A stretch of 64,000 nt of DNA, taken from contig OZ020258.1 in the NCBI GenBank assembly GCA_963971285.1, positions 5,084,001 through 5,148,000 of the forward strand, given 5' to 3'. This DNA comes from Astropecten irregularis (taxonomy: Eukaryota; Echinodermata; Asteroidea; Paxillosida; Astropectinidae). This document shows, piece by piece, positions 480 to 60,358 of this stretch; position 1 is the stretch's first letter; each line of letters starts with the position of its first letter. The notes under the pieces were generated by a model. That model worked only from the letters and a program-made list of their open reading frames with translations. It did no database searches and was not told where the DNA came from. The translations under genes were made by a program, and so were the position numbers.

Positions 480-630
480 CCGTATCTGCGTACGTAGAAC
501 CAAGCCCGATCGATGCGTCCACCATTGCAACCCCTCTGGCCCCGTGTATTGCAAGACAGCAGATTCTGAGCGGACAAGGCTAGCTTCATGTTACCCATGG
601 ACTGTATGGCCAGGCGGTCTGATGCAACAG
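480..630 (-). CDS. TINAGL1: TINAGL exon 5: papain-like domain, continued
   Basis: The 151-bp exon has acceptor TATATACAG (ending at 631) and donor ACGG|GTGAGC at 479. It encodes AVASDRLAIQSMGNMKLALS, then AQNLLSCNTRGQRGCNGGRI, then DRAWFYVRRYG. The SxQNLLSC and GCxGG motifs are the papain-fold cysteines downstream of the active-site helix. The phase-1 join to exon 4 restores STTAVASDR. No further exon is visible to base 1. Confidence 0.95.
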
Positions 631-3600
631 CTGTATATAAAAAGCACATGCAAAACTATGATTATAAACCCTATTAATGGTCACGTGAGGGCGTTATAAC
701 GGACGCTTTCTCGGAGGGTACACGTCGGGAGAAAATTACACATAGGCCTACCTGAAGAATTAGCCCTGGTTAGAATGTCTGTTGTTTTCAAATTAGGAGA
801 AAATAACACTTTTGCTTAGACTCCAGACTGGGCCCTTATATACATTGCCTGATGATGTCACTTCATTGCATCTGATGAAGTAGTAGTTGCTACAAAAGCT
901 TAGGCTAAGCACAATTTTACCCTAGTTATTCATTAGAATGCCACTTGTATTTTTAATTATAAATAATAAATAATACATCATCATGATATTTTTACCTTTT
1001 GGGCAAAATGGTACCTGTATCCCAAACAAGGTGTTCGGTATAGCGCCTCCATCCGGCAAAACAAATGGTCTACTGGCGTATTTTCATTCTCCTGAAACTT
1101 TTTTAAAAACATCTCCCATCATTTTATGTTTTCTTGCTAAAAAATTGGCACGATTTTAAAAGAAAATTGTCAAGTAAACCACACCTGTTGTCGAGACAGC
1201 CCAGGAACTCCCACAATTCCCCTGGTCCATGACGCCTTCTAGCCAGCCTGGCCACTTTTGGCGGGAATCGAAATCGTCTGGCAGGCCTTCGACGGGCTCC
1301 ACTACGATTTCCCTCATGGCGGCGACGGTGGGACCGGGTTTCAACGTGCCCAGCCGCCGCTGTTTGCCCTCCTCCAGAGTCATGCCCCACAAAAAGGAGT
1401 AATTACCGGCCTTCCATCTTGTAAAGGGAAAGGACGAATATCAACAGAAAGGCTGAATGATCTGTTTTCTTCAAACCGTATGGTCGTTAATAATCAAGTT
1501 TGATCACTACCAAGGTACATGAATCGTTTCAATTTAGATGTCTGTTTGTTTTTTGGTATGTTTTTTCACCAACCAATTAATGTTAGTGTACAAATGGATA
1601 TCTCCCAACTTTCCAATTTCAATTTCAACTCAATTCACATTTAATTCCATTCTGTACAGGTCAATTGAAATTTGAAAACAAATGAAGATATATCAAGTAT
1701 AATTGCCGGCACATAACTGGAGGCATGTTCTCGACCAAATTTCAACTTCCACAAAATAATGAGTTATTTCACAGCTTAATGAAAGCTGCAATATAGTTCT
1801 GGTTTAAACACCCATCATAACCAAATCAGAAATTGGTGCTATTTTCTGTGCAACCATTACGATGCCGCATTTTGAAAGCGTTTAACGTCGGAGAGCAACA
1901 CAATTCAGACGGATGAATCGCTCAAATTTAGATGTCTGATTGTTTTTTTGGTTGAAATTAAGGCCTAAGTACGGTGCATGCGGCTACAAATGTGACAGGG
2001 TGAATAAATTGATGTATGCTTATGCGTCTGTTATGCCGTAATGGGCTATGGGAATGTGTTATCTTTTATTGAATGGCACACAACGTGCAATCGGTAAATC
2101 AAATGTGTTTATGGCGCAATGTCTATTTATTATACGGTTATTGCTTAGTGATCGTCCTCGGCTTGAAATTACCTCATTTTTTAGAATTACGGTGAATGTA
2201 ATAACGGCACATTATACAGTCATTACAAAGACACAACATGCCAATTTAATACATTCAAATCTACCTAATTGTCTCAGGTTTCAACACTAGGAGTAGACAG
2301 CACCCCAAGTGTCGCATACCGTTGGAAAGCTCTGTTCATGCTGAATCCAATGGTAACAATTGTGGATGGATTTGTGCCAATTTTCCACCAATTTTTCTGG
2401 TACTGGCTATTTAGCATCCAACAGCGAGTCATTGGCCAGGACAATGGAGGTTATACGTACCCATGATTTCCAGAGTTCACATGGTCAATTATGTCTTCTC
2501 TGATGAGGCAGACCTTTTCTTCGCACTCTACCTGGTAGCCACCGACCATCGGCAGGCAGGTACTAAAAAAGATACAAGAAAGAAATAAAAAACAAAGTTA
2601 GCTTTCCTTTGGGAATCAGAAGAGATTCCAGAACATTATTTTTTGACGTACTAAACGTGATATACATTAATTTTGTAATTGCAATGGAGTGAAAGCTTTT
2701 AGTACGCACCACATGTTGCAGTTGTTTCTGATTGAATCTCCCGCGAATAAATCCATGCCTTTGTAGACACAGTCGCCTAGGAACGATATAAGAAGTAAAT
2801 CAACACAATATAATTAAAGGTTTACTGTAATCAAAACTCATATGAAGTTAAATATACATCTGTATTGCTATAAACATCAACCTGTCTATCATTGTTTGTG
2901 CTAAAAGATATTGTATATAGAAAAAAGAGGTATTTTAGACCCATAATTTAGCACCCCATTTTTCGCGACGAAAACCATTGCTTACGTACGTCACATGCAG
3001 AGCGTCACGCCTATACTGTTTAGTTCTGTTTCTTACGTCTCACGCTATTGTCGTGTGGATCGGTTCCAAGGGGGACTTTTTTGGGGGGCGGGGCATACAT
3101 GTACTGATTTTGTAACTTTTTGGTTAAAATTTAGCACTTACATAGAAATATAAATTTATAAAGTCATGAATTATGTATTAAGCAATAACTTTAAAGCATT
3201 TTCACCCCTTTCCCAAATTTGATTACAGTAAACCTTTAATCTCTTAAGGTGCTACCGTATCGTAATGTTTACGGTAGGCCTAACACGGTATAGTACTATA
3301 GTTATAGAGCACTTTCACCCCTTTCTCAAATTTGATTACAGTAAACCTTTAACATTGCCCTTGACCAATTACATTCGGATTGCTGAATAATTTGCCAGGA
3401 AAACAAGTTTCGAAAATGTAAAAAATAATAGTTCTGTGAGATACTTTAAACCTCGAACACTGAATTGTTAAATTCACGAACCTTTGGTTAAAGGGTTTGG
3501 GCTGAGAGGTTGTTGGGTCACGGGCTGCGGCAGCCCCGTGCAGTTGTTGAAGACATCGGGGCAGCAGTCCGAGCTATTGGACCGCAGACAGAACTCGTCG

Positions 3601-3785
3601 CAGTAGCAGAGCGTGTCTCCTCTGGGCGCCGTGCAGGAGTCGTCCCGACCGGGGCAACATCCTCCCGGACGCTCGGAACAGAACTGGGACCGCACAGCGC
3701 TGGGACAAACTACCAACACCAAGACGGCGACGACGAGAGCGAGGAATGCCAGGGGACCGGTCCGAAATCTGGGCAACTGAGGCAT
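480..3785 (-). CDS. TINAGL1: Tubulointerstitial nephritis antigen-like gene, 5' five exons (3' end outside window)
   Basis: The product is a secreted matricellular/basement-membrane protein: a cysteine-rich N-terminus joined to a catalytically dead papain-like (C1A) domain. Five exons on the minus strand (3785-3482, 2776-2710, 2562-2461, 1417-1185, 630-480) join with matching phases into 857 coding bases, 285 codons plus two bases. Residues 1-33 look like a signal peptide. Residues 36-82 are a ten-Cys somatomedin-B domain with RGD at 55-57. Residues 84-99 are a Pro-rich linker. Cys104-Cys142 form a second Cys-rich unit. Residues 159-168 (WKAGNYSFLW) match the TINAG linker. The C1-like domain begins near Leu203. 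Its motif DQGNCGSSW (222-230) has Ser229 where papain has the catalytic Cys, a family hallmark. Exon 5 gives SAQNLLSC and GCNGG motifs. The frame is open to 480 and the next exon must lie left of base 1. It could be co-orthologous to both vertebrate TINAG and TINAGL1. Recognition is from recalled family patterns. Confidence 0.95.
1185..1417 (-). CDS. TINAGL1: TINAGL exon 4: linker and start of papain-like domain
   Basis: The 233-bp exon has acceptor CCCTTTACAAG (ending at 1418) and donor ACAG|GTGTGG at 1184. It encodes WKAGNYSFLWGMTLEEG, RLGTLKPGPTVAAM, LPDDFDSRQKWPGW and DQGNCGSSWAVSTT. The Ser-Ser-Trp sequence replaces the papain Ser-Cys-Trp active site, so no protease activity is expected. 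Phase 2 in and phase 1 out both fit. Confidence 0.95.
1418..2460 (-). other. TINAGL intron 3
   Basis: No exon is seen here. The only internal structure noticed is a near-duplicate of about 30 bp (AATTTAGATGTCTG followed by a T-rich tract) at about 1531 and 1925, probably the two edges of an old insertion. The open frame 2269-2466 on the other strand is antisense to exon 3 and its intron. Intron 4 (631-1184) holds nothing I recognise. Confidence 0.5.
2461..2562 (-). CDS. TINAGL1: TINAGL exon 3: second cysteine-rich segment and linker
   Basis: The 102-bp exon has acceptor TTTTTTAG and donor GG|GTACGT at 2460. It encodes TCLPMVGGYQVECEEKVC, then LIREDIIDHVNSGNHG, with the final Gly codon split. 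The ECE-x-x-xC-L-acidic-N-x-GN-x-G pattern is characteristic of TINAG-family proteins. Intron 2 (2563-2709) is only 147 bp. Confidence 0.92.
2710..2776 (-). CDS. TINAGL1: TINAGL exon 2: start of second cysteine-rich segment
   Basis: The 67-bp exon has acceptor TTCCTAG (bases 2778-2777) and donor TG|GTGCGT (2709). It encodes DCVYKGMDLFAGDSIRNNCN followed by M and a split Cys codon. Phase 1 in and phase 2 out match both neighbours. It is too short to show as an open reading frame by itself. It matches the CxxxGxxxxxGxxxxxNCNxCxC pattern of TINAG proteins. Confidence 0.9.
2814..3239. mobile_element. Family F MITE (in TINAGL intron 1)
   Basis: Terminal inverted repeats AAAGGTTTACTGTAATCAAA and TTTGATTACAGTAAACCTTT are flanked by TTAA on both sides. 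The interior has TTTTTCGCGACGAAAA and a G-rich tract. A second full copy lies at 47609-48053. TTAA flanks suggest a piggyBac- or Kolobok-type source (inference). Confidence 0.85.
3306..3352. repeat. Isolated family F right end
   Basis: CACCCCTTTCTCAAATTTG then ATTACAGTAAACCTTTAA repeats the right terminus of the neighbouring F copy without its left half. It may be left from a tandem or aborted insertion. Confidence 0.6.
3482..3785 (-). CDS. TINAGL1: TINAGL exon 1: signal peptide and somatomedin-B domain
   Basis: The ATG at 3785 has A at -3 (AAAGAATG) and opens a hydrophobic leader with the core AFLALVVAVLVLVVC. The likely signal cleavage is near Ser33/Gln34. The somatomedin-B cysteines are C36, C43, C44, C51, C60, C62, C66, C74, C75 and C82, with RGD between C51 and C60. 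N70-S-S and N81-C-T are potential N-glycosylation sites. The donor is AAAG|GTTCGT at 3481, phase 1; reading through it would reach a stop at 3474. Confidence 0.93.
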
Positions 3786-3864
3786 TCTTTCGTGTCCTCG
3801 TCGTTCAATAGTACACCTTCGAGAAGAAAAAGAAAACTGTTTTTAAAATCCAAATACAAGCAAG

Positions 3865-4068
3865 CAGTGGCGTCGCCAAGGGGGGGCCGGGGGGGGGGGC
3901 ACGTGCCCCCCCCCCCCCTGAAAACCTCGTGCCCCCCCGCGTGCCCCCCATTTGAGATTTGGGTTGGTGAAAAAAAATATAATATATATTGTAGTGCCCC
4001 CCCCCCAACAATTGCTAGTGCCCCCCTTGTGCCCCCCCCCCAGACTCAAAAGTCTGTTGACGCCACTG
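3865..4068. mobile_element. hAT-type MITE with perfect 8-bp target duplication, just upstream of TINAGL
   Basis: The 204-bp element has termini CAGTGGCGTCGCCA and GACGCCACTG and is flanked on both sides by the exact 8-bp duplication CAAGCAAG (3857-3864 and 4069-4076). An 8-bp duplication and CAG/CTG ends fit the hAT superfamily. It is rich in G/C homopolymers and has no coding capacity. A near-identical sibling lies inverted at 12560-12764. Confidence 0.92.
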
Positions 4069-4130
4069 CAAGCAAGTGAATGAACATAATTATTAATCTT
4101 TCAGACGACTTAACCGAGGAACAGAGTTTC

Positions 4131-4366
4131 ATAGAGTTGGCACCAACATTTGCTTAAGCACCAAACACCTTTCTTAGTAAAATCAGAATGGCAGCCAAAA
4201 CTCCCAATGGATGTTATGCTCAGCAAACAATGGCCGAATACAAGTCAAAAGGAGTAAACGTCACACATTAATTGGTTGGTTAGTCCTGTTTGTTCAAGGA
4301 AGACTTTTCATGCTTAAGCAATTTTTTTGCTTAAGCAGCTCGCTATGAAATTGGCCCCAGGTCTAT
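4131..4366. repeat. Family H-like inverted repeat, diverged
   Basis: TTGGCACCAACATTTGCTTAAGCA on the left pairs loosely with TGCTTAAGCA and CTATGAAATTGGCCCC on the right. This resembles the better preserved family H copies at 43238, 56238 and 62471, but similarity is limited to the ends. Confidence 0.4.
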
Positions 4367-4726
4367 GATCAACCCCACAATGTCCACAAATGTGCCAGCT
4401 TTCAACAAACAGAGGAACACCTCCTCAAGTTGAATACAAGAATCACCCTCCTTTAGATTTGTTTTCTCCTGTTAAGAATAGGCTTAATCAGCGTTCGTCT
4501 GCTGGATGGAACATTCTAAATGCTACAAATCTTTTCATGTGAGAACAATATCAACCCATAAAACACGAACAACGACGTAAATTAGGTTCACAGCAAGGTC
4601 AGAAACAACACTGAATTGATGCCGCTCGTAGATAAAACACAATTTGCCGTTAAATATGCTACACTGTGCTGATTGCTCATGCAATTCTTCATTTAACATC
4701 AAATTGTATCTCAGACAGCTATTTAG

Positions 4727-4949
4727 CTAAATTTCATCCTGGTAGATTCTCGACAGATCATCTAAACAAAGCTCATTAAAGAATTGCTCGGTCGTAAATT
4801 CTGACTGACAAACCTCATCGCGGGGCTTCCAACGACAGTTAACCTTTACGACTTTCTGGGTCGGTAGATATGATAGAGGTTTACGCACGGTTGTTTCGAG
4901 AGCACGTAGAATAGAGAACAGCAAAGGAAGCAGTGAGTTCAAAGAGGCT
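4727..4949 (-). CDS. Possible terminal exon of an unknown gene
   Basis: An acceptor-like CTAATATTGCAG precedes a frame open for about 74 codons that ends in TAG at 4727. It contains SLNSLLPLLFSILRALETTV, then a segment with VNCRWKPRDEVC and FFNELCLDDLSRIYQDEI. Three cysteines and mixed composition look protein-like, but I recognise no family, there is no ATG, and frames of this length occur by chance here. Upstream exons were not found. Confidence 0.22.
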
Positions 4950-7900
4950 CTGCAATATTAGAAGCTTAAAAGCGATACATTAGTGACTGAAGATGTTTCC
5001 AACTCAACTAATGTGTTCTACTTACGGTGCTGACTTTCTCTCTCTCTCTTAAAACTCGAGGCAAGTAAGGAGATTTGATTAGCATAAGTCAACCAAAATA
5101 TTGTCCTTGAAGCCGAAGAGGGGACATGGTGATGGCACCCGGTGAATTTTCAATGCATGATGTTTGCGATATGTTGTGAATTACACGCTGTGTAATAACC
5201 CATCCGTGGGTGTATATATACCTACCTGTTTTTGTTATTGATGGAACCTATTTGTTATCCCGGATTCCTCTAAGGCATTGAGAAAAAAAAACCTTTTCCT
5301 TGTTCAAATTATTTTTCAGGCCAAAAGTTCCCGATAGTCGTCTGTTTTTGGCTTTTTGCGGGAAAAGAATGCAGGCTTCAGTCAAAACATGTCAAAAACA
5401 CCCCAGATGATAAATACGTGTCAGCTTGTGCCATGGATCACAGACCGGGAAAATACAGCCCCCGGCTTTGAAAGGTTACACATCAACAGATCCGTGCGGT
5501 TAGAAAAATCGTTCCCATTATGCTCGTCACTCCCAGTGTTCATCACAACACCACAATGTTGAATATTGATAAACTTTTCTCCAATTTTGCAACCCATGAC
5601 ACATTATTGTTGACTTTCTTTTTTCAAACTGACAGGTTAATCCGTGGAAGTTTGATCACCCCTACCAACAAAATTGGCAGTGGGCCTAGATTTCGTCTGG
5701 GTTCCAGAAACTATGCGCTGTCAACACCGTATTATAGCAAACCTTTATCATTATTTTCATCCAAGGTTACATTCCAGGGCTCTTGAGAAGATTTACAAGG
5801 CTTTGTTCGGACATTTTTTCACAAGGGAATGAAATAAATCAATGATACAATGGCTTGCATTCATCTGTGTGCGTTCAGCTTCATGTTCACGTTTTGGAAA
5901 CGTCATATTAATGGACTTATGGATAGGACAACTGTTACAGATCGTATATGCATGCAAACTGCCTTGGTAGAGTTTACAATATAAGAAGGCCCTAATTTGT
6001 TTTGTTCTGCTAAAGGGACATTATTGTGAACCTAGAACTTGCTGAATGTACTAATTCCCCCGCAAGTAGCCAGCATTCCTGGGGGTAAACGATGTTATCA
6101 TCTGCATTCCCCCCTCCCCTTCCTATTCTCCCACCCTCCTCCTTTTGCTCTCTCTCTCCTCCCCTTTTATCGCGTCCCCATTTTTCAGGGTGCACCCAAG
6201 TAAATAGTCCCAAAATCCGTCTGCCGAGCCCATTAATAAAAGTTAATTGCAATCAATTTATAATAAATTAGAGAGTTCTGAGAGCTATGAAACTGAGTGA
6301 TTGAAGAAATATGGCACTGAACCTCCTGCCTGGACTCTGGGCTTCCATTTGTGACCATTTTTGGTCTATTTCAGCCGCTTTGCATGCAGATCTAGGGATG
6401 ATTTTTTTTTAAATGACTGAAGTGATCCATACCTTGTTTTAGGGGTGGTCAGCTGAGAATGAGTATATCTAAAAACAAATTCAATGGTCAACCCACCATA
6501 AAATGAAAAGAAAATGAAAGGTGACATGTTCATCATCATTTTTTTGTGCAACTTGAACACCTGTGAGAGTTCTGAGTTTTTTTTAATGCTAGCTCTGAGT
6601 TATTTTAATGATCTTTTTAAGTATTAGGATTTATCACTGTTGTCTATGGGAGTTTATTTAATTGGGTGCAACCTTTATTGCTTTTCCGTCGTCCACATTT
6701 TAGTCATCCGGGGGGTAGTCTGCCCCCTGCCTCAAACTCACTGGCTACGCTACTGAATCAGATAGTCATCAGTTATATTACAGAGATAATGATTACTAAC
6801 CTAACGGATTGCCCTAGCTGTATAGTAAGTCGGTTAAATTTATGTAGGTATTTGATAATGCGTATTTAACTTTACTGTATGTATTACGACATAATATGGG
6901 ATATAGACAAGCTTTATCAATATCAATGGATTAAATATCATTAACATATTTCACTTGGTATAATGCTCAATGAATATCCCAAATGGAATGGCTTGAGTAA
7001 AGAGTTGAAGACGTCAGGGGACTATGCCTATCATGGTGGTGTTACTATAAAGAGAGTGAGGGGCGTTGAATCTTGATCCCCTGGTACACTCTTGAAGTCT
7101 ATAGATCCAAAAAGAAAACTGTAATGCAGAGAGTTTAACTCATCTTGGCCTTCATCTTGAAAAAAACAAAACAATGCAGTACGTGAAATCCAAGTTTGAA
7201 TGACCTTGTTTTGGGTAACTGAACTAACATTTCGAAAGGCATGCAGTGAATTACACATTTCAAGCATAATGCTGGTGTATTAGATATTTTGACAAGACGG
7301 TCAACAAATCCGAAACTTGAATGTCTTTAAGTATAGGCCTACAGTAAAGTCGTGCTAACGAAACCCAAGTAACGGGAAATACTGAAGTATCTTTATGTGC
7401 CTTACTGGGAGTCCATCCCCTCCCCAACTTGAGGGTTGAGACCTTCTTCTGTCTCATGACGGCCGAAGCATTATAACCGCCCTTGTCAAATAAATATACT
7501 CCGGTTCTTTCAGAAACCACGTACCCAAGTCTTTTCCCGGCACAGTCCAGTAGGCCTACGTCACTGCACGTGAAAAATAGAAACCTCGATTCTACATCAA
7601 AATTATTTCTACCAAAATGAACACCCACATTCAAATTTCTCATACATTAGGAATTACCTGAAGTCTATCGGAATGCGTTGATGGAAGTACGAGGATCAGG
7701 AGTTTGTTTGATGACCCCCATGCGATGGCTCAAATAGCTCCGTATCCTAATGATTCGTCCGCGGATAGCTCTTACTTCTCACCGTCGAAGTCCCACCAAA
7801 AAAATGCCCTGGCCTTGGGCTGACGAACCCACACGGCAGGCGTTCAGCATAGAACTCGCCCAGTAAATAATGTTCAGCAAGCGTGGAGCCCCCGCACTGA

Positions 7901-10191
7901 ATACGGTACAACCAACTTGATGATCACCGGTGCTTCTTTATTTTCTTAGTACTCGAAGGCTAAAAAAAAATGTTATCGGAATATAATCATAATAATCCAA
8001 AAATGCCAGAAGCCTATCTTATCATTTTGATGACAAAAGTAAATACTCCCAAGTGTTTTGTTCGAGTCCACTAGTGCTCTTTTACAAAACCACAACTGCT
8101 ATGAGATATAACCAAACATCGCACTGTGCAAATATCATGCACACAGAATGATAATGGGCTTTTGACGGACTACTGACATTACCAGATTCTAAAGCTTTTA
8201 TTTGTGTTGGCGACAGCGCATGAAAGAAACGCATGCATTTGTGAGCGATAGAAATAATTATGACGGTCGTGGAACACACACAGCGTGTTTTTCGATAACC
8301 CAACTTCGTCTTCGTCAGCTGAAAGCTGCTATAAAAGTTATGACTTTTCCTCCTTGAAATTAACTTTCCATTATCTTGCCAAAGTTTGGTTTGACACCTA
8401 GCTGTTGCTTTGAGATAAATTTATTATTATTATTATTTACTTATTATCTTTTTCTGGTTATGATAAGTACACTTATTAAATTCTCATTAAAATGTCTAGA
8501 TTTAAGAAGACATGTGTGTCACAAACAGGTCTTTAAAAAAGTGACTACTATATAGGTCTATAATAATTTTGTAGGCTAATTTAATATTATACTCCAAAAA
8601 GACTAAAGATTTCATTTTTGATTTTATATTTCGTTCTTTATTCAGAACATCTTAAGGAAGATGTTCTGAATATTATCATTGGTTCACCAACTGGTTATAG
8701 GCCTATGTGTTTAGAATGTCAGACATTTTAAGAAGCTTTTAAACTTCTCTCACACAGGCGCAATAATGTAGGCACCTGTTATGAAAGATGAAAGAATACG
8801 GTGGCAGTTGTAGAGACTTACAATGGCCAAGGAGTGTCACAACCTTAATAGTATGACCTGGATAATGCCAGACTATAGGTCCGGACGATAATATAACAAG
8901 GACGAATAGGATCAAGGAGGCGGTCGGACACTTATCACACCCGGGACAAGAGCCGTATCACACGGCAGGCAGAGGCTCGGCTAAAGGCATGTCCTTGCCC
9001 CGGAGTCCGGAGTCAGGAGGCCACATTCCACACCGGATTATACCACAAGTTGTTAGTTATTATCCCCTGTCAAAAGTATAAGTACCCAATAGAAATGACG
9101 TGAGATTACTGGAAAATAACTTGTGGCTCTGTAGATCTACGTTGAGTATTTATCTTCTTTTTTTTGTCACGAGGAGGAAAATGAAGGCCACACAGAGACG
9201 GTTACAAGTCACTTTGAATAGTGTCTCGATCTGAAGTGGGATTATTACAGTGAGATCAGCCTTATTAACCAGATTAACCAGAGCAGTCTTATCCACTGTG
9301 GATAATCCTCACCATAGCTCTTGAAGTCAACACATACAATTTCGTAAAATTCAAATTTTACATTTTTACCACAAAAAAAAGTAACCGTGCGAAAAAGGTA
9401 TCCTTCGTAGATAGCTAGTAGCGCCCTCAACGTTGAAATTAAATGTAAAACTCCCCCAATATTCATTGAATATGCTATTAATTGAGAATTGTGGAGTCCA
9501 CGATTTAGGCCAATCGGACCAAACTGTTAACATTTGAATTGCACTTTGCAATTTGTATTGATACATACACAGGTTTTAGTATTTTTACTATTTTATCACT
9601 TTTACTGTGTTTTCTTTTAATAGCAGCTTGTGACTATTCTATTTAACTTTTTCCAAGTAGTTTGATATAATTTTTCGTTAAGCTCTATTTTATATTTGGG
9701 ATTTTAAATAGTTTTTTTTTTAAATTGTTTGTTTTTTGTCTTGTGTTTCTCATTTTAATTGAGCTTTCTTTTTACTTTTTATGTCCAGTCTATCTTGGTG
9801 TCTTAACATTATTCGTTTTGTTTTTACTGTTATCAACTGTGACTTTTGTTTCAGGGCCCTGTGGAAGAACACATTAAGTGTGAACGGGCTACCCTGATTA
9901 AATATTAGAAATAAATGAATAAATACATGAAAGTATAAACAAGCTTTGGATTTATGAACAACACAAAAGGTCACTGCCAATTATTAAGTTAATAATCTTT
10001 AGGATCCCTATAGTTACTCACACGAATGTAACAGTTCCATCATATTTATGTGGAAAGCTTAATAATGTTTGCCTTGTACCATTCAGTAACCTTTTCCATG
10101 CATACCCACCATGTAACATTATTAGAAATCCTGAATTTATGCAAGACTAGTTAACATTCCTGGGACGATTTCACGAAGCCCTAAGCTTGAT
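4950..10191. other. Gene-poor stretch, no confident gene
   Basis: Seen here are CT microsatellites (5037-5050), a pyrimidine-rich tract (6108-6175), and a fragment with CCGGGGGGTAGTC ending in TGGCTACGCTACTG (6700-6756) that may be a hAT-type remnant. A minus-strand 127-codon frame at 7260-7643 and a short frame (7031-7178) behind the acceptor-like TTTTTTTCAAG could be exons but match nothing I know. Otherwise it is AT-rich unique-looking DNA. Confidence 0.4.
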
Positions 10192-10588
10192 CTTAGGTAA
10201 TATCATTCTTTGGTTTTTATCAAAGAAATACAGATTCCATGGGCAACACATTTTTGCCCATGGATCTTGATATTTAATATCAAGACAGATGCAGTAACAG
10301 TCATCTGTGAAAATTTCAGTCCCATACGGTGCCCACGTTTTGAGGAAACAGTAAAAAGATATAGCCACAAAATTTCTTAAGTCTTTTCTCTTTTATTTGT
10401 GATCTTGTAATAGATCAAAAAGATTTTCGGTCGTTGTTTTACTAATTTCTGGATAAATACACCACTTCAGACGGAAAATTGTAACGGTATGTTTCTACCA
10501 GCACCATCTTCATATACCCTGTAAGTTATACGTAAATCTGTGAACATTTCTGGTTTGATTTCTTACCAAAGTATGATACTATCTTTAA
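10192..10588 (-). mobile_element. Family A MITE
   Basis: It has family A ends (TTAGGTAATATCATTC left, AAGTATGATACTATCTTTAA right), the shared GTTCACAGATTTACGTATAACTT segment and the inner TTCGGTCGTTGTTTTAC. The copy is reversed and somewhat expanded near 10250. Confidence 0.85.
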
Positions 10589-12388
10589 GTGTGAATACAT
10601 CTAAATTGCTAAGCAATGTGTGATGTCACAATACAATCTATATGGTGATACTGAACAACTTATCTTAATATTAATCTTAATGGTCTGTGAAATCCAGCCC
10701 AGGCTCCCAAGTTTAACAGCATCCCAAGTAGAAAACCTTACGCAACCTACGCTGTGAATTACATCGTACATTTGGGATGGGAAAAGAACTTAAGTCGGAA
10801 TGCTCCTTACCTTAAATTGAACATCAAGTAGGCCTACAGCACAGATTCAAACCGACCTAAAAATGCAATTCTCTCCTGCACGTATTTACATTTTCAGTGT
10901 ATATTGAAGAGTAAGGACTAACGGTCTTAATCAATCTTAAGAACATCTTACCCAAAATGTCAACTTTCCTTCTTGTGAAAATGCAATCCTTCGCTAGCTT
11001 CGTTATAGGCAATGCCGGTCACGTCAAGAAATACTGTCACTGCCGCTCAGCCGAACTGTCACCAACATGCCATGAAAGTAACACCGGTGTTTCTGTGACT
11101 GACAACAAGTCTATTGATCTCCACATACATACAACACTTTCTTTTTTCTCAGGGAACAACAACCAACAAAAAACAACACTTCCAATCGAAGGTTATAAGC
11201 TAATTCGATTTCCATGGTTATCAGCAAGGCATAAAGGAATTATGACCATGCCGATGTCAGTATTGTTATTAATGGCCAACACACGTGGCAGAGTTTGGTA
11301 TGCGGGCGACGGAGTCAAAATGGAAAACATGTATGTGTGTAATACCCGGCCAGGAGCGGGGATATTTAGAAGGTAATTGGTTTTTGGGGAGGATTGACTC
11401 TCATTCACGAGACTTGACTGGATACCCGACCGTTAAGACTTTCAATTATGGAATACAGCCTTGCAATGGAGTTGCCTTTTTGTATTATCCTTTTTTCTTT
11501 TCGTCATCCTCATTGCGCTTAATTAACTGCCGTGCTACGACAATTACCCAAGAGCGACACGGATCAAGTCTAATCCGTGAGGATCTAAGGTTGATAATTA
11601 TACATCTTCATTGGCTGGATTTCAATTATGAACTGACAGCAGTAAAAATGACTGGAAATCTCCATCAATTTGTGAATGTCTTCAGTATATGAGCAGCTTT
11701 TTCAGGGCAAGGTATTACTTGTTGACTTATGAGGGGTTTTAACTGACAGTCATAAGTACGGATGTCCCTGGCGGACAAACCTTTATAGGATGTAAGGATG
11801 ACAAGCTCTTTTCGAAGGCACGCACGAAAAACAGCCACCTTGGGTTAATGAACTTATTTTGGGTCTCCAAGGGGGCGCTGTACCCAAATCTTTGGCTGCG
11901 GCCGCAAATAACACACACGTCTATGAAAACGGCTGCAGTCACTGGCTAGTGGCGCGTTAGCAGAAAATAATCACGGTCAGCCCAGAAATCCTTCGTTAAC
12001 CGAAAGTCTTGCTTACAGATTCCATGAAATAAAACTTCACGCAAAGCAGTGCACGTAAGCACAAAAATATAGGCCGTGATCGACGGATTCCATGAAATTG
12101 GGCCTATCAACGTACAAGTACGGTTTATTTACTATCAAACAAGGTTCATTATTTTAAGGTCCTTGTGCACACGCAATGATATATGGACGGGCTAATGATC
12201 CTTTGTTGAACTAAGGTCATTTTCTGCTAATTAAAGCCGCTGCCGTACTTAACCTATTTCGTCGAGCCTGGTTTCCGTGACAGCAAGAAAGTACAAGCTT
12301 GTGTTGGAACAGTGCGTGGGCATTACGTCTACACGAAATAGGTCTGTCGGTTTGAAACAGGGTCGGATCTCAGCAAAATATTTATTAT
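10589..12388. other. No confident gene
   Basis: Plus-strand frames of 139 and 135 codons (10957-11376, 11285-11692) overlap each other and lack recognisable motifs. GGGGGCGCTGT and CGGCCGC near 11875-11910 are GC-rich words without context. I see no repeats with clear ends. Confidence 0.4.
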
Positions 12389-12531
12389 GGGGTCGATTTC
12401 GCGAAGCCCTACGATTGATCGCAATTCGAGTTTACGCGGGAAGGATTACCCTCGTATCCTACGATAGGGCTGCAATGCATCGCAAGTCCTACGATTTATA
12501 GTAAGCTACGATGGGTTTGGTGAAATCGACC
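12389..12531. mobile_element. Family I palindromic MITE
   Basis: Terminal inverted repeats GGGGTCGATTTCGCGAAG and TTTGGTGAAATCGACC enclose about 140 bp with CCTACGAT/ATCGTAGG words on both arms. Similar elements occur at 27580, 58466 and (half) 62247. Confidence 0.8.
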
Positions 12532-12559
12532 TCTGAACATTTTTGTCAATGTATAAACG

Positions 12560-12764
12560 CAGTGGCGTCACCAGACTTTTGAGTCTGGGGGGGCACAAGG
12601 GGGGCACTAGCAATTGTTGGGGGGGGGGGGGGGGTGGCACTACAATATATATTATATTTTTTTTCACCAACCCAAATCTCAAATGGGGGGGCACAAGGGG
12701 GGGCACAAGGTTTTCCAGGGGGGGCACGTGCCCCCCCCCCGGCCCCCCCTTGGCGACGCCACTG
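12560..12764. mobile_element. hAT-type MITE, second copy, inverted
   Basis: The 205-bp element has termini CAGTGGCGTCACCA and TGGCGACGCCACTG and the exact 8-bp duplication TATAAACG at 12552-12559 and 12765-12772. It is the reverse orientation of the copy at 3865-4068. The overlapping short frames across it are low-complexity artefacts of the G and C runs. Confidence 0.93.
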
Positions 12765-13083
12765 TATAAACGATGCACTCACCTATTGCGATTTGTCGGA
12801 GCATCCTTGTGTTTCCCTTTCGATGGTTCCCTGGCCCTCTGCACTGTCCTATACCGCACGACTGCTGATAACCAGTGATGAGCAGCATCGCTCAAGAATC
12901 TGGCACCAAATAGCTGACGAGACTCGTACGGTCACTATTGCTGAGGTGCGGGAACGCTACACTCTTAGTCTACCATATCATGGTAGATACATCTGCCTTC
13001 TTCAAGTCTGCAATAAAATGGCATAATTTATTAATTTTATTAGAAAAATTCAAATAACAAAAATAACAAAACTATAATAATTA

Positions 13084-13380
13084 CCGATAATGGGTACTTA
13101 GGGAGACATTCCCATAGGGACGTGCACACGACTTTACTTACCTTTTTCTAAACATCCTCCAAACCAATGAACTTGAAATTGAAATATTAAAAATATTTGA
13201 AATATTGAAAAATATATATAATTGAAATATTAAAAATATTTGAAATATTGAAAAAATATATATAATTGAAATATTAAAATAATTGAATATTATTGGGGAG
13301 ACAACAAAATGTCTCCCTATTGACCGGTGTCTCCCAAATGTTAACTTTCAGATGCTAACCTGTCTCCCTATTATGCAATT
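13084..13380. repeat. Family J repeat with internal 53-bp tandem units
   Basis: GGGAGACATTCCCATAGGG, CGTGCACA and ACATCCTCCAAACCAATGAA recur at 57255-57540. Between them, about two and a half copies of an AATTGAAATATTAAAAATAT unit (period about 53 bp, 13185-13300) replace what is different sequence in the other copy. Both end with CTGTCTCCCTATTATGCAAT. Confidence 0.65.
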
Positions 13381-16383: not shown

Positions 16384-16739
16384 TTAAGGTAATATCATAC
16401 TTAAGTTGTTATCAAAGAAATCCAGATTCATGGGCAAACATTTCAAGACAAATACAGTAACAGTCATCTGTGAAAATTTCAGTCCCATACGGTGCCCACT
16501 TTTTGAGAAAACAGTGAGAAACGGCATTTTAAGTCTTTTTTTTTTTATATGTGATCTTTTAAAAGATCCAAAAGATTTTCGGTCGTTGTTTTACTAATTT
16601 CTGGATAAATACACCATTTCACACGGACAATTTCTAACGGTATGTTTCTACCACCACCATATTCATACCCTGTAAGTAATACGTAAATCTGTGAACATTT
16701 CTGTTTTGGTTTCTTACCAAAGTATGATACTACCTTTAA
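16384..16739 (-). mobile_element. Family A MITE
   Basis: It has TTAAGGTAATATCATACTTA and GTATGATACTACCTTTAA ends, the internal palindrome-like GATCTTTTAAAAGATC, and TTTCGGTCGTTGTTTTAC. The copy is reversed. Confidence 0.88.
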
Positions 16740-20128: not shown

Positions 20129-20551
20129 ACTGCAATGCAAATGACGTTATTGCCTAGAGAGCAAGATAGATGACGTATCCTTTAAGGGATTTTTCTTTGA
20201 TTTCTTTAAAGGTAGTATCATACTTTGGTATGAAACCAAAACAGAAATGTTCACAGATTTACGTATAACTTACAGGGTACGAAGATGGTGGTGTTTGAAA
20301 CATACCGTTAAAGCCTGAAATAGTGTATTTATCCAGAACTCAGTAAAACAACGACCGAAAATCTTTTTGATCTTTTAAAAGATCACAAATAAAAGAGGAA
20401 AAACTTAAGAGATACTGTGGCCGTTTTTCCACTGTTTTCTCAAAAGGTGGGCACCGTGGGACTGAAATTTTCACAGATGACTGTTACTGTATCTGTCTTG
20501 ATATTTTTGCCCATGAATCTGTGTTTCTTTGATAAAAAAAAAAACAAAGTA

Positions 20552-23254
20552 CACTCAGAAAACGAATGTAAAAAATAAAATATGTAAAGAATATTGTGTA
20601 AAAAAATACTTAATTTATGTAAAATCCCATGAAAAAGCTATACAAATTTGTTTTGTAAAAATAATTTTTCATATTTTGGGAGTAAACATACAAGTTTACA
20701 ATGATTGTGTAAAGTTTACATAAGTGAAGTAAGTACTTTACATGTATCAAGTGGTAAGAAATTAGAGTTCATAACGTCATGGTAAGTTTTACAATACATA
20801 CATGACAGACATTCAATTTACACAACAAACAAGTACTTTCGGGAGTTCGAATATGCGTGGCTTCACTTGACGTACATAACAGCATGGAAATGGACAACAA
20901 ACTGAAGGCTTGGAGGTTTGGTCATCTTGTGAAGGTAATTAACCTTAGTTAATGTTTTCATGTTAATTTGTGTAATATTAAGGTACGGATGGCTGACTTG
21001 TGAATGGTTTACCTACATTTAATATGGATTTATAACATGTCAAATACATTACGCCATGGAAGTTATACGTCCGTTACAAGATGTGACATTCATATGCGTT
21101 GATTTCTGTGTAGTAATTTGAGGACAAACTAAATGGACAGAAGTCTCTGAAAAGATTCTATTAAAGCTTCGTCCTTAAATTTATTCTATCCTGGCAAACC
21201 CATCTTCTGAAGGATAAGGACGTCGATGTGGGGGAACTATCATCAGGTAGAATCTAGTTGGGCCCATTTTCCGGACAGTTGATAATGGTGGTGGTGCAAA
21301 CCAGTATTGTTCACAGAAGATAATTATGGGGTTATTTTTTTAAATTTTCTTCAGGTGAAAGCAACTTGGAATTGTCTGCTCTCCAACTTCCTCTGTTCAC
21401 TGGCCGACGAAAGGCGAAACGTGTACGACAACATATAATCCTTCACATGAGGCTTCATCAGTTTTTATCGATGTTCATTCGGTAAGTACAAATATTTACT
21501 AAGATGTTGCAGAGTCTTTTTTTACATGAAGTCAAATATCAAAATTACAATGTATCAACAGGATCCATGACTGAAAACCGCTAAAAATGAAGACCCACAA
21601 TAAACTTCAGGAATGCTCGTAGGATCTGAAAGACATTTAGGTCATATGAATCATAGAAAACTACATAATTATGCGGCAGACGATTCACGTGTCCCAGGTT
21701 TGAATGAAAATTTACCCTAAAGTGTGTTTTTTCCAATAATTATTCCATAGTGCCTCTGATAAATACAGTCGTTGTACGTAGTCTAATTATTTGCTTTCAA
21801 TTTTTGTTTCCATTTCTTCAGGGGAACAATCACCAAGAAGATGGAACAACAAAATCACAGCCGTTCTGATTCTTGTCCTGTGGTGACACCAATAGCTCTT
21901 CAGCAAGTGCTCCTAGTTCGCCAAGCACCTCCACAGATGTATCTTTATCGGAAGAATAGGACATTTGTTTTAAGACATACTTCGTCTGAGACTTGCAGTA
22001 CCACTAACAAGACAAAATTGTTCAGGTATATGTGACTTCATGGAGTCTGTCATCTTTGAGCTCAAAGACAATGTAAAGGGATGTGCCATCAGAGATTTCC
22101 TGGTATTTTGCTGTTTTAACATTCATTGTTTTATCTGAAAGTTCACATTTCTTGGTAATCATCATGCATTGTTCATGTCTCATTTCCCATAATCAAGAGA
22201 AGGTCTATGGCTTTAAAATGAAATATTTACATGTACATGTAAATGGCCAGATTTGTTTTCAACTGACATCTGGGTTTTGTTAACCAGTAGCAGACAGGTA
22301 ATGGTCAATATGTTTTCCTGTACTTTCCAATAGATGTTTACTGTCTTATATTGATGTTTATAACATGTACATTTGTTGTTTATAATTATTCCATTGCAGG
22401 TTCAGTACAATGTTTAAACTTGAAAATTAAAGGGCCATAAAAATTAATTATCAGTTGATTCTTAAATGTGATTTCCAAATGACACAGAGGTAAAACAATA
22501 TACCTGAACCCTGCAGTGGATGAGTACAGTGAATAGAAGGGACAGTTCAGTTTCAATGTGTACTATTATGCTGACAATTGTTTCATTTGGCAAGGAGCAT
22601 TTATAGAAAGTTCTAGGCATCTTGCTCCCATAAACATTTAGCGTCCATCTTGGTTTTTTTTTAACTACCTCTAGGTTTTGAGGTTTCTTTTCTACTTCAT
22701 AAGAGAGGAATTTAAGAGGAATTTGGGAGGTCTTGTATTTTGCACAAATACACCTTGCTTGATCGCATTAATGATGTTGATTTTTAAAGTATGTCAGAAA
22801 TAGAAATAAAGCTCACAGCATTCAAGTTTGAAATTTGACATTTCTATGTGTGTTTTATTTTATGTATAACGGTTTGTGATTTTGAAAAAAGGGATTTACC
22901 TATAAACTCGGTAAAGAGAAACAAGTTAACATATCTAACATGTAAAAACAATGCCGAAAATACATAGATAAACGGTAAAATTTTTACTTAATAAACAAGT
23001 AAATTGATTTATCTTACACAGAATAGTGGTAAAATTTTTACCTATTATCAGTGTAAAATTTTACATAACAGGGTTTTACCTAGAAATTAGGTAAAATATG
23101 TTACACAATTTAAAAGTAAAAAATTACCTAACTATTGTGTAACATTTTACCAAACACTTGTTATGTAAGTTTTACCTAGTAATGTCGCATGTGCGCCCGT
23201 TACATGTAAAACACGGTAAATTTTACTTATCTTGTGTAAATTTTTCTCTGTGTG
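20552..23254. mobile_element. 2.7-kb nested TIR element carrying a decayed gene
   Basis: The insert starts CACTCAGAAAAC and ends TTTCTCTGTGTG, so the ends are imperfect inverted repeats (9 of the first 12 positions match). It is flanked by duplicated TA. About 280 bp at the left and 400 bp at the right are packed with GTAAA/TTTAC words, reminiscent of subterminal transposase-binding arrays. The middle contains a spliced, broken gene (20884-22430) and a poly(A)-signal-like AATAAA at 22805. A TA duplication fits Tc1/mariner-like integration, but the ends and subterminal arrays are not typical of it. The superfamily is unresolved. Confidence 0.72.
20884..22430 (+). pseudogene. Decayed multi-exon gene in nested element, SAM-domain-like N-terminus
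   Basis: Five segments join in frame: 20884-20934 (MEMDNKLKAWRFGHLVK, donor AAG|GTAATT), 21114-21246 (acceptor TGTGTAG, donor CATCAG|GTAGAA), 21355-21481 (acceptor TTTTCTTCAG, donor ATTCG|GTAAGT), 21822-22025 (acceptor CCATTTCTTCAG, donor TTCAG|GTATAT) and 22400-22430 (acceptor CCATTGCAG, ending in TAA). Phases agree at every join. Exon 2 has in-frame stops at 21114-21116 and 21162-21164, so it is probably not functional. LKAWRFGHLVK-x-FEDKL resembles the start of SAM domains of the SAMD3-like type (recalled pattern). Later parts (LPLFTGRRKAKRVRQHIILH and a Ser/Gln-rich tail) are unrecognised. It could be a transposon-encoded protein or a captured host gene. Confidence 0.5.
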
Positions 23255-23271
23255 TATGATATTACCTTTAA

Positions 23272-30667: not shown

Positions 30668-31034
30668 TTAAAGGTAGTATATCATACTTTGGGTTTTGTC
30701 AAAGAAAAACAGATTCATGGGCACAAATATCAAGGAAGATACAATAACAGTCATCTGTAAAATTTTCAGTCCGTAGGTTGCCCACTTCTTGAGAAAACAG
30801 TGAAAACTCAGCCAAAGTATTTCTTAAGTCTTTTCTCTTTTATTTTTGATCTTTTAAAAGATCAAAAAGATGTTCGGTCGTTGTTTTACTCTTTTCTTGA
30901 TAAATACAGCATTCCAGGCGGAAAAATTTGAACAGTATGTTTCTACCATCACCATCTTTATACCCTGTAAGTTATACGTAAATCTGTGAACATTTCTGTT
31001 TTGGTATGTTACCAAAGTATGATATTACCTTTAA
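30668..31034 (-). mobile_element. Family A MITE
   Basis: TTAAAGGTAGTATATCATAC to GTATGATATTACCTTTAA, flanked by TTAA, reversed. It has the standard GATCTTTTAAAAGATC centre. It lies about 280 bp upstream of the candidate promoter at 31316. Confidence 0.9.
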
Positions 31035-31315
31035 AATTGACCCCCCAAAACGAAGAAGAAGAAGAAGTAACATAACCGACCAATAAATAATGTCCTGAAT
31101 AATATCGGATAAAGTGACAGATTTGGATGAAGGAATCGCTTGCCTCTGTTGATTTTTTCTGGGGCGAGTGAGGCAGTCAAACTCTGCTTGAACTGCCTGT
31201 CAAGTCCAGAGACCTCGCTACATCATCAATATTTATGACATGCGTTGCCCAGGGGACATAATGGCCGCGTCGTCTGAGCACTGCATGCGCACTGCATGCT
31301 CACTGCACTGTCAGC

Positions 31316-31930: not shown

Positions 31931-32292
31931 TTAAAGGTAATAACATACTTTGGTTTTTGTTGAAGAAATACAGATTCGAGGGCAAAAATATCAAGGAAGA
32001 TAAAGTAAAAGTAATCTCTGGAATTTTCAGTCCCATACGGTGCCCACTTTTTGAGAAAAAAAAACAGTGAAAACGGCCACAGTATTTCTTAAGTCTTTTC
32101 TCTTTTATTTTTGATTTTTTAAAAGATCAAAAAGATTTGGGTCGTTGTTTTACACATTTTTGGATAAATACACCATTTCAGGCGGAAACATTTTAATGGT
32201 ATGTTTCTACCAGCACTATCTTTATACCCTATAAGTTATAGGTAAATCTGTGAACATTTCTGTTTTTTACCAAAGTATGATACTACCTTTAA
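31931..32292 (-). mobile_element. Family A MITE
   Basis: TTAAAGGTAATAACATACTT to GTATGATACTACCTTTAA, reversed, with TTAA flanks. It lies 127 bp from the preceding B copy. Confidence 0.9.
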
Positions 32293-37372: not shown

Positions 37373-38130
37373 AGGTAGAATATAAAAGCGAGCCAGCCTG
37401 CAAGTCATTAGGAAGGCAGGTCATCTGGGAGAGCCATCGATTCATCCAGGGAGCCAGCGAGCTAGCCAGACGGGGTGTCCCATCTATTTTATCCATCTAT
37501 CGAGGGGAGCCAGCCAACCGGACAGACAGGCATCTTGGTATAACCATCTAGCCTGCCACCAGTAAACCAAGCACACATCTATCTCTCCCGCAGGCGAGCC
37601 AGAGAGTTCCAGCAATGCTGCCATCATGTCAGCTACAAAACCAGCCATCCTGTAAGCCCGCCAAAACCCAGCCTGCCAGCCAGCCAAAAGACAACCTGCC
37701 AGCTACCTTGCCAACCAGACAAAAGGCACTCTGCCAGCCAACCAAATGCTAGCCAAAAGGCACTCTGTCAGCCAGCCAAAAGGCACCCTGCCAGCCAACC
37801 AATATGTACCCTGCCAGCCAACCAAAAGGCACCCTTGCCAGCCAACCAAAAGACACACTACCAGCCAGCCAAAAGGCACCCTGCCAGCCAACCAAAAGGC
37901 ACCTTGCCAGACAACCAAAACACGCACTACCAGCCAGCCAAAAGGCACCCTGCCAGCCAACCAAAAGGCACCCTGCCAACCAACCAAAAGGCACTCTGCC
38001 AGCTAGCCAAAAGCCACCCTGCCAGCCAAAAGCCACCCTCCAAGCCAGCCAAAAGCCTGCCAACCTGCCCGTCATCCTAAAGCCAACCATCCAACCAGCT
38101 AGTCATGGCTATCTTCCGAGCTAACCGCTC
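37373..38130. repeat. Minisatellite, 24-bp period (CCAGCCAACCAAAAGGCACC-like)
   Basis: The core 37714-38060 holds about a dozen near-identical 24-bp units, CAGCCAACCAAAAGGCACCC plus TGC. Looser GCCAGCCAGCC/AACCAGCC variants extend to both sides. Because 24 is divisible by 3 and the unit lacks stops, several overlapping frames stay open on both strands (up to 113 codons). These encode only Pro/Thr/Lys/Gln or Trp/Gly/Leu/Phe repeats and are not genes. Confidence 0.9.
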
Positions 38131-39204: not shown

Positions 39205-39555
39205 GTTACACCACAGCCGTGGGTATCACTTTGCTTGTGTCCTTGAGTAAGACAATTTGCGCAAATTGCTTCTCTGGACCTAGGAGTATACCGGCAAATG
39301 CGACTTGTGCTATGTGTGATAATAGGAGCCGTGCTGCGCACCCAACTGAGATCAAAATGACTCCCAGCAGTAATAATTAGGCAAAGTGTCCTGGAGGTTC
39401 CGTATTTAAGGAGAAGATACATTTTGCTGTGACATGAGAAAAGACCAATGACTCTATTACTATATACGACATCTGCGAGGTAAGCGTGAGTCTTCGCTTC
39501 CTGCAGTGTATCCTTCAGGAAAACATACTCTTTTTGACGTGAACACGATTTTATT

Positions 39556-39925
39556 TTAAAAGGTAGTATCATACTTTGGTAGGAAACCAAAACAGATATG
39601 TTCACAGATTTACGTATAACTTACAGGGTATGAAGATGGTGGTGGTAGAAACATACCGTTAATTTGTTCGCCTGAAATGGTGTATTTATCCAGAAATTAG
39701 TTAAACAACGACCGAAAATCTGTTTGATCTTTTAAAAGATAAAAAATATAAGAGAAAAGACTTAAGAAAAATTGTCGCTGTTTTTCACCGTTTTCTCAAG
39801 AAGTGGGCACCGTGGGAGACTGAAATTTTCACAGATGACTGTTACTGTATCTGTCGTGATATTTTTGCCCGTGAATCTGTATTTTTTTTTTATAAAAACC
39901 AAACTATGATATTTATTTTACCTTG
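39556..39925 (+). mobile_element. Family A MITE
   Basis: TTAAAAGGTAGTATCATACT to the eroded end ATGATATTTATTTTACCTTG. Forward, with the canonical middle including AACAACGACCGAAAATC. Confidence 0.88.
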
Positions 39926-47232: not shown

Positions 47233-47586
47233 TTAATGGCAGTATCATACCTTGGTAAGACACCAAAACAGAAATGTTCACAGATTTACGTATAACTTAC
47301 AGGGTATGAAGATGGTGGTGGTAGAAACATACCGTTAAGATTGGTCCGCCAGAAATGGTGTGTTTATACATAAATTAGTCAAACAACGACCGAAAATCTT
47401 TTTGATCCTTTAAAAGATCAAAAATAAAAGAGAAAAGACTGTAGCCGTTTTTCACTGTTTTCACAAAATGTGGGCACCGTATGGCACTGAAATTTTCACA
47501 GATGACTATCACTGTTTCGACCTTGATATTTTTGCCCATGAATCTATATTTCTTTGATAAAAACCAAAGTATGATATTACCTTTAA
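47233..47586 (+). mobile_element. Family A MITE
   Basis: TTAATGGCAGTATCATACCT to GTATGATATTACCTTTAA, forward, full length except for a small deletion after AAAAGACT. It ends 22 bp before a family F element. Confidence 0.9.
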
Positions 47587-51453: not shown

Positions 51454-51803
51454 TTAAAGGTAGTATCATACTTTGATTTTTGTCCAAGAAATATAGATTC
51501 ATGGGCAAAAATATCAAGGACGATACAGTAATAGTCATCTGTGAAAATGTCAGTCCCATACGGTGCCCACTTTTTGAGAAAACAGTGAAAAACGGCCACA
51601 GTCTTTTCTCTTTTATTTTTGATCTTTTGATCAAAAAGATTTTCGGTTGTTGTTTGACTAATTTCTGGTTAAATACACCATTTCAGGCGGAAAAAAATTA
51701 ACGGTATGTTTCTACCACCACCATCTTCATACCCTGTAAGTTATACGTAAATCTGTGAACATTTCTGTTTTTGTGTCTTACCAAAATATGATACTACCTT
51801 TAA
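51454..51803 (-). mobile_element. Family A MITE abutting a family B copy
   Basis: TTAAAGGTAGTATCATACTT to ATATGATACTACCTTTAA, reversed. Its terminal TTAA (51800-51803) is also the first TTAA of the B element that follows. Confidence 0.9.
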
Positions 51804-52152
51804 AGGTATAATACATGATTGGTAAATATCACAGAGCGGCACTCAAACTTTGTCTTATCCAACATGTACATAGAATAATACACCTGTGAAAATTTGAGCT
51901 CAATCGGACATCTGAGTCACGAGAAAATAGCGAAAAACCGACTCAATTGTTCTTATAAAATATGACGATTTTTTTTTTATCTTATACCCCGGTCTTTATT
52001 TGACTAATTTCTGGATAAATACACGATTTCAGGATGAAATATTTTAACGGTATGTTTCTATACCACCATCTTCATATCATGAAAGTTTTAGGTAAATTTG
52101 TGAACATTTCTGCTTTGGTTTGTTAGCGGTCCTGTATTAAAAGTACCTTTAA
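51800..52152 (-). mobile_element. Family B MITE abutting a family A copy
   Basis: TTAAAGGTATAATACATGAT to AAAGTACCTTTAA, reversed, full length, with GAGCTCAATCGGACATCTGA and GTCACGAGAAAATAGCG. It shares CCTTTAAAGG with the adjacent A element. Confidence 0.88.
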
Positions 52153-59993: not shown

Positions 59994-60358
59994 TTCAAGG
60001 TACTATCATACTTTGGTAGCATGCCGAATCAGAAATCTTCACTGATTTACCTATAACTTACAGGGTATGAAGATGGTGATGGTAGAAACATACTGTTAAA
60101 AATCTTCTGCCTGAAATGCTGATATTTATCCAGAAAAGAGTAAAACCAGTGACCAAAATCATGTTTGATCTTTTAAAGATCAAAAGTTAAAGAGAAAACA
60201 CTTAAGAAATACTGTGGCCGTTTTTCATTTTTTTTCTCAAAAAGTGGGCACCATATGGAACTGAAATTTTCACAGATGATTGATACTGTATCTTTCTTGA
60301 AATTTTTGCCAATGAATCTGTATTTCTTTGAAAAATACCGAAGCATTATTACCTTTAA
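59994..60358 (+). mobile_element. Family A MITE
   Basis: TTCAAGGTACTATCATACTT to GCATTATTACCTTTAA, forward, full length, same subtype as 53899 (GTAGCATGCCGAA). Confidence 0.88.

Follow-up and report, generated by a model that had tools for sequence, protein, structure and literature searches.

The 2.7-kb insert found in the window (the whole 64,000-nucleotide stretch of Astropecten irregularis DNA analyzed here) is very probably a non-autonomous internal-deletion derivative of a two-gene cut-and-paste transposon of the CACTA/EnSpm-like type. The superfamily is named from four lines of evidence that fit it, namely the ends, the length of the target duplications, the subterminal arrays, and the catalytic motif of the transposase, and thus ends that the original prediction could not assign to any superfamily have found a place. 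The window copy itself is an ordinary member of its family. The interest sits in the parent system, in which a gene with a SAM domain accompanies the transposase.

The window copy and the short family

The insert is exact to the base, and the MITE that it interrupts resumes on either side of it, matching the uninterrupted copies of the same MITE in the window (Table 1). In several cases these uninterrupted copies read ...AAAGTATGATATTACCTTTAA..., and the insert has TA on both of its sides. Thus, the earlier description of a MITE split at its TA, with the TA duplicated, is correct in its coordinates. The imperfect inverted ends proposed at the same time recur in other copies and are therefore not a matter of chance.

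Table 1. Features of the 2.7-kb element and of its insertion site, in window coordinates
Feature	Position	Strand	Basis
Interrupted MITE, left part	20205..20549	+	MITE copy comparison
Left target duplication, TA	20550..20551	.	Sequence and MITE comparison
2.7-kb non-autonomous CACTA-like element, very probably an internal-deletion derivative	20552..23254	+	Exact ends common to other copies; collinear with long copy A
Left terminal inverted repeat, CACTCAGAAAAC	20552..20563	+	Seen in window; recurs in copies
Left subterminal GTAAA/TTTAC array	20552..20881	.	12 in 330 bp; shuffle maximum 6
Exon 1 remnant, first half of SAM domain, 10-bp deletion	20884..20934	+	Comparison with long copies
Unaligned stretch at the ~7-kb deletion junction (A 556-7599 missing)	21065..21128	.	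Alignment to A
Exon 8 remnant, 3' part, frameshifted	21129..21246	+	Comparison with long copies
Exon 9 remnant, 7-bp insertion	21355..21481	+	Comparison with long copies
Exon 10 (last exon) remnant, +2, -1, +2 frameshifts	21822..22119	+	Comparison with long copies
Right subterminal GTAAA/TTTAC array	22775..23254	.	19 in 480 bp; shuffle maximum 7
Right terminal inverted repeat, CACACAGAGAAA on the minus strand	23243..23254	-	Seen in window; recurs in copies
Right target duplication, TA	23255..23256	.	Sequence and MITE comparison
Interrupted MITE, right end	23257..23271	+	MITE copy comparison

The MITE family, about 340 bp long, is dense in the window; its ends lie near AAAGGTA..TACCTTT, and its target duplications are possibly TTAA. 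Besides the interrupted copy (20205-20540), it is represented at 39555-39898, 16406-16739, 30694-31035, 51477-51805, 47233-47563, 59994-60335, and 31954-32292. The window also contains a 23-bp unit in 12 tandem copies (37753-38029), located within a 178-codon open frame (37544-38080). Searches of the window for tRNAs and for Rfam families reaching the gathering score had no match.

The original prediction proposed a search for other copies with the same termini, and these are numerous. The assembly containing the window (G000; 475.7 Mb, 168 contigs) gave at least 46 matches to the element, of which 22 cover the query in full and 2 almost in full; some of the other matches are fragments of broken copies. 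The genome therefore holds at least 24 near-full-length 2.7-kb copies with identity of 89-100% and common ends. For further comparison, L035, L038, L039, and L040 were aligned with these 24, making 28 short copies. Wherever the left end is present, the first 12 bases are identical, the exception being one base in L012. Identity within some copy pairs reaches 99.0-99.5% (L018/L020, L010/L013), so the short family probably moved recently.

Both ends can be read in 27 short copies, that is, in all but L013, which has an N at the left end. All 27 have CAC..GTG ends, and in all 27 the target duplication is 2 bp (18 TA, 3 TG, 3 CA, 1 TT, 1 AT, and 1 AA). A 3-bp duplication was found in 0 of 26 copies, L015 with its deletion near the right end being set aside as well. 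TA is a preferred, but not a required, target of the short family. The subterminal regions are rich in GTAAA/TTTAC: in the window copy and in long copies A and B described below, it occurs 2.9-4.4 times per 100 bp in the ends vs 0.3-0.5 inside, which is about 8 to 13 times denser, and its count in each end exceeds the maximum of 500 mononucleotide shuffles.

The window copy (L009) aligns with long copy A in four blocks, 1-513 with 1-555, 578-1066 with 7600-8074, 1125-1568 with 8274-8739, and 1853-2703 with 9313-10096. About 7 kb are absent from it, including exons 2-7 of the SAM gene, 52 bp at the start of exon 8, and the transposase. Accordingly, the short copies keep remnants of exons 1, 8, 9, and 10 only. 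The SAM-like character ascribed earlier to the first exon is borne out, exon 1 being the first half of a SAM domain. The splice signals of the original gene model are present in the window (donors after 20934, 21246, and 21481; acceptors before 21114, 21355, and 21822), as is AATAAA at 22805, and an AG is seen at the start of its fifth exon (22400 on). The donors of exons 1 and 8, both ends of exon 9, and the acceptor of exon 10 derive from a gene whose frame is open in a long relative. However, the acceptor before 21114 is not ancestral, the original one having been lost in the deletion together with the beginning of exon 8.

Other parts of that model need revision. The two stops in its exon 2 are present in the frame used, but the decay is wider, with frameshifts in exons 1, 9, and 10. 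In the ancestral frame of the last exon, window positions 21798-22013 contain two TGA, one TAG, and one TAA; thus, the open frame with matching phases that was drawn through this exon is not the original one. Identical frameshifts, the 10-bp deletion in exon 1 and the 7-bp insertion in exon 9, occur in 25 of 25 short copies (L009-L032 and L035, the set taken apart from the third subfamily L038-L040), and so do the +2, -1, and +2 shifts of exon 10 relative to A. That the short family has a functional SAM gene was rejected for this reason, and with regard to the copies with an intact exon 2 that were to be sought originally, none of the 25 has an unbroken gene. The polymorphic columns among short copies are spread over codon positions without bias (42/33/39 of 197/198/197), whereas the differences between A and the short copy L018 are biased (37/45/86 of 197/198/196). 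In the simplest reading, the short line would have left the line of A while the SAM gene still worked; then the gene would have died, and the deleted form would have spread as non-coding DNA.

Long relatives with a SAM gene and a transposase

Copy A (C1:5654737-5664832, 10096 bp) has the same ends as the short copies and TA on both sides, and its outer parts are 87% identical to the short element. Within it are ORFs resembling a transposase, together with exons belonging to a second gene. Its relative B on contig C25 (joined 3509-13354, 9846 bp) is likewise flanked by TA, has CAC..GTG ends, and contains the same second gene. The transposase is a single frame of 829 codons from ATG in B and is split in A into two overlapping frames, of 404 codons from an ATG and of 424 codons; because of this break in A, the search yielded no unbroken element with precisely these ends. 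The B-type family is, on the sequence data, recently active.

In both A and B, the second gene has ten predicted exons and nine GT..AG introns with phases 1,0,0,2,0,1,0,1,0, and is open over 541 codons in A and 568 codons in B. As the exons were placed by comparing A with B, the two copies are not independent tests of this gene model. Exons 1 and 2 together make up the SAM domain, and the transposase ORF lies within intron 2. The transposases of A and B are 69% identical, and the order, orientation, and intron position are the same. In six of the ten exons of the second gene, A and B differ at 118/90/192 of 321/324/324 sites at codon positions 1/2/3, and pN is 0.283 and pS 0.755 over 526 codons. 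Judged by these substitution patterns, the SAM gene is under constraint. For the transposases, dN/dS is 0.098 over 424 codons, with dS of 2.26 and hence near saturation.

Four further B-type copies (C25:11886635, C1:624964, C25:13193784, and C1:14705895; L053-L055 and L047-L050) are 99.5-99.9% identical to B over the fetched stretches, and their transposase frames have 835 codons in three cases and 770 in one. A fifth, at C1:12606105, is 98.4% identical and has a 431-codon frame.

Element C on contig C10 (L060 and L061) has the same two-gene layout as A and B, with a transposase about 41% identical; its proposed ends, CACTC..GAGTG between TA at 1472-11114, are less certain than those of A and B. 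In C, SAM exon 2 reads without a stop into the transposase, forming a 901-codon frame in L060, and the same is observed in a copy on contig C14 (L065), where the frame has no stop as far as the retrieved sequence extends. Since exon 2 is open in this way, splicing at its end in these two families would give a SAM-tail protein and the lack of splicing a SAM-transposase; a donor-like GTGAGT directly follows exon 2 in C. In A and B, the transposase is preceded by an acceptor-like site (TTTACAG and TTTGCAG, respectively) with an in-frame TAA at once after it, and an alternative AG slightly further on would keep the transposase frame open. Element D (C1:8083500-8095999) has the last SAM-gene exon, and SAM exon 2 was not found in that interval. 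Element E, from a more distant family (C29, L064), has a 928-codon transposase frame bearing C2H2 and, downstream of it, a SAM_TNK-like stretch scoring 22.7 of 25 bits; its match to the last exon is at chance level (E-value 0.41). Element E hints that the SAM-transposase pairing may be wider than the close families.

With exons 1 and 2 joined, Pfam SAM_2 exceeds its cut-off of 20.5 in C (23.9 bits) and in the C14 copy (23.7 bits), and SAM scores are below cut-off in A and B (SAM_2 13.1, SAM_1 14.4). For A, a SAM domain assembled with a three-X spacer had no Pfam match, and the whole predicted second protein of B had no SAM match and only a chance-level Pfam match. A SAM profile yielded nine weak matches in the PDB (best E-value 0.092), six of them to proteins that we take to have SAM domains. 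Animal SAMD3 and SAMD3-like proteins are composed of a SAM domain, a serine-rich linker, and a conserved C-terminal region, and the second gene may be SAMD3-like. Pfam Transposase_21, a weak test for diverged animal members, is above its cut-off of 28.6 in none of the transposases (B 20.2, E 17.5, C 13.0, and A 11.3; no match in L051). In A and C, it is outscored by unrelated models that are also below cut-off (MTP18 18.7, OspG_kinase 18.1), and D scores for Pfam Plavaka (17.6 of 26.3) and not for Transposase_21. A profile of four transposases matched only four unrelated entries in the PDB (best E-value 0.3). In the four aligned transposases, D300, D395, C415, C418, H622, H626, and E646 are invariant; they form the catalytic layout D, D, C(2)C, H(3)H, E, in which residue roles are assigned by motif alone.

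Linkage of the two genes was analyzed genome-wide: from a list of 96 transposase matches, 56 of the first 57 were compared with 66 of 105 last-exon matches; the sample stands apart from the 39 last-exon matches inside short copies and from the lower-ranked transposase matches. Of the 24 transposase rows with at least 45% identity, 21 were used, the other three (C1:13371453, C1:13371857, and C8:24241769) being pieces of copies already counted. In 17 of these 21, the last SAM-gene exon lies 3.7-11.9 kb downstream on the same strand; one of the remaining four has it at 19.7 kb, and three, all fragments, have none on the same strand within 25 kb. Among the matches compared at 30-44% identity, the partner exon is downstream in 5 of 16 and 2.8 kb upstream in 2 more, and below 30% identity it is found with 0 of 19. 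For 66 exon rows in 475.7 Mb, a chance neighbor within 15 kb is expected for about 0.2% of transposases.

Known systems, alternative readings, and a possible mechanism

The target duplication of CACTA/EnSpm elements is 3 bp in plants and 2 bp in animal TRC elements. In maize Spm, tnpD is located within intron 1 of tnpA (PMC2613891). Similarly, maize En/Spm has two products, which here are predicted, with the transposase ORF in an early intron of its partner, as well as subterminal repeats and deletion derivatives keeping both ends (PMC2613891). The window copy, which keeps both ends and the subterminal arrays, resembles such a derivative. The system differs from maize En/Spm in the 2-bp rather than 3-bp duplications, in the mostly TA targets, in the non-plant genome, and in a second protein that starts with a SAM domain. 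An animal CACTA element, SmTRC1, also has 2-bp direct repeats (7 of 14 SmTRC1 copies; PMC1636069). Further likenesses are its Transposase_21 domain, scored here below cut-off, and its alternatively spliced transcripts, predicted here (PMC1636069). The ends of CACTA elements start with CACTA, akin to the CAC observed here, and those of SmTRC1 begin with CCC (PMC1636069).

The CMCT clade is marked by C(2)C and H(3-4)H between the second D and E (PMC12730594). Its EnSpm, Plavaka, and ESTA families share these motifs with the transposases described here and mostly have 5'-CA..TG-3' ends and duplications of 2 to 5 bp, in agreement with our elements (PMC12730594). The accessory gene studied in that article is a TET/JBP dioxygenase, with no SAM domain found in the portion of its text consulted, whereas the gene here is a SAM gene. 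It is possible, though we think it unlikely, that the same two-gene system uses a transposase of another CMCT branch (Plavaka-, Mirage-, or ESTA-like) and not of EnSpm proper. The 2-bp, mostly TA duplications are consistent with such a branch, as are the Plavaka score of D and the fact that every Transposase_21 score is below cut-off. However, A, B, C, and E do score for Transposase_21, if weakly, and the CAC..GTG ends fit EnSpm rather than PlavakaA (TGT..ACA) or PlavakaB (CATCA..TGATG) (PMC12730594).

A different origin was suggested in the original prediction, namely that a transposon captured a host SAM gene, which then decayed inside it. The element is indeed mobile and nested and contains a decayed SAM-type gene, and the genome has last-exon matches with none of the listed transposases nearby, which leaves room for possible stand-alone genes. 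However, the gene is the family's own, from the 10-kb parent: the short copies align collinearly to a 10-kb element holding the same exons and a transposase, and the SAM gene is constrained and, in 17 of 21 close matches, found with the transposase. A recent host gene capture was rejected on this collinearity, which leaves the capture reading improbable to a high degree; an ancient version, in which the SAM gene was taken up at the origin of the transposon lineage, is possible. Even less credit is due to the view that two separate elements, one with the SAM gene and one with the transposase, lie nested or side by side and seem to be one. SAM exons do occur on either side of the transposase ORF, an arrangement expected from a nested insertion, and the partner is missing from some distant transposases, but A and B agree in order, orientation, and intron position with transposases 69% identical, C agrees in layout at about 41%, and the TA-flanked ends of A and B enclose both genes. 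Least plausible of all, and rejected, is a Tc1/mariner-type element with a TA target: TA is duplicated at the window copy and in 18 of 27 copies, but the other 9 have TG, CA, TT, AT, or AA, and the long copies encode a different type of transposase.

In the favored CACTA/EnSpm-like reading, the parent type is an element of ~10 kb with CAC..GTG ends, a ten-exon predicted SAM gene, and a DDE-type transposase ORF of ~830 codons in intron 2. One transcription unit may yield both proteins by alternative splicing. The transposase would cut and join, and the SAM protein may bind or assemble on the subterminal arrays, by analogy with TNPA in maize Spm (PMC2613891). The short copies, having kept both ends, would be moved in trans by the proteins of a full-length relative. 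A more speculative scenario, which we put forward tentatively, is that the SAM domain serves as a coupling module in both proteins: a splice made behind SAM exon 2 would give a SAM-tail protein coating the subterminal arrays, retention or re-routing of the same intron would give a SAM-transposase, and the two would assemble by SAM-SAM contacts. Animal SAMD3-like genes would in that case be domesticated or stray copies of the transposon's helper gene.

Novelty and further occurrences of the last exon

In the open-licence literature, covered by titles and abstract starts and lying apart from Repbase reports, no paper linking SAM or SAMD3 to CACTA/EnSpm was found. Within that literature, two observations are apparently new: the pairing of a conserved SAM gene with an animal CACTA-like transposase, and the in-frame continuation of SAM exon 2 into the transposase in two families. 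If a SAM gene under constraint stays with the transposase, the lineage would have a recognizable helper. Such a gene would also show the En/Spm layout, with the transposase ORF in the partner's intron, outside plants and with a different-looking protein, and would offer a testable origin for SAM-domain genes resembling SAMD3. For one animal CACTA element, the second proteins are described as lacking detectable relatives among elements of other animals or of fungi (PMC1636069).

The last exon also occurs in less regular arrangements. At C2:69619-72419 and C4:186063-188887, it is located 2.8 kb upstream of the transposase on the same strand, possibly reflecting a swapped gene order in another family. 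At C15:8507664-8511376, it is present six times in tandem with a spacing of 659-684 bp, downstream of a same-strand transposase and with a stop in five of the six. Ten last-exon matches, all on the minus strand, are found at C11:20.0-21.9 Mb, with small transposase fragments tens of kb or more away; these are either host genes or a diverged element family. By eye, the transposase matches of the clade seem crowded on contig C1, mostly at 5-15 Mb.
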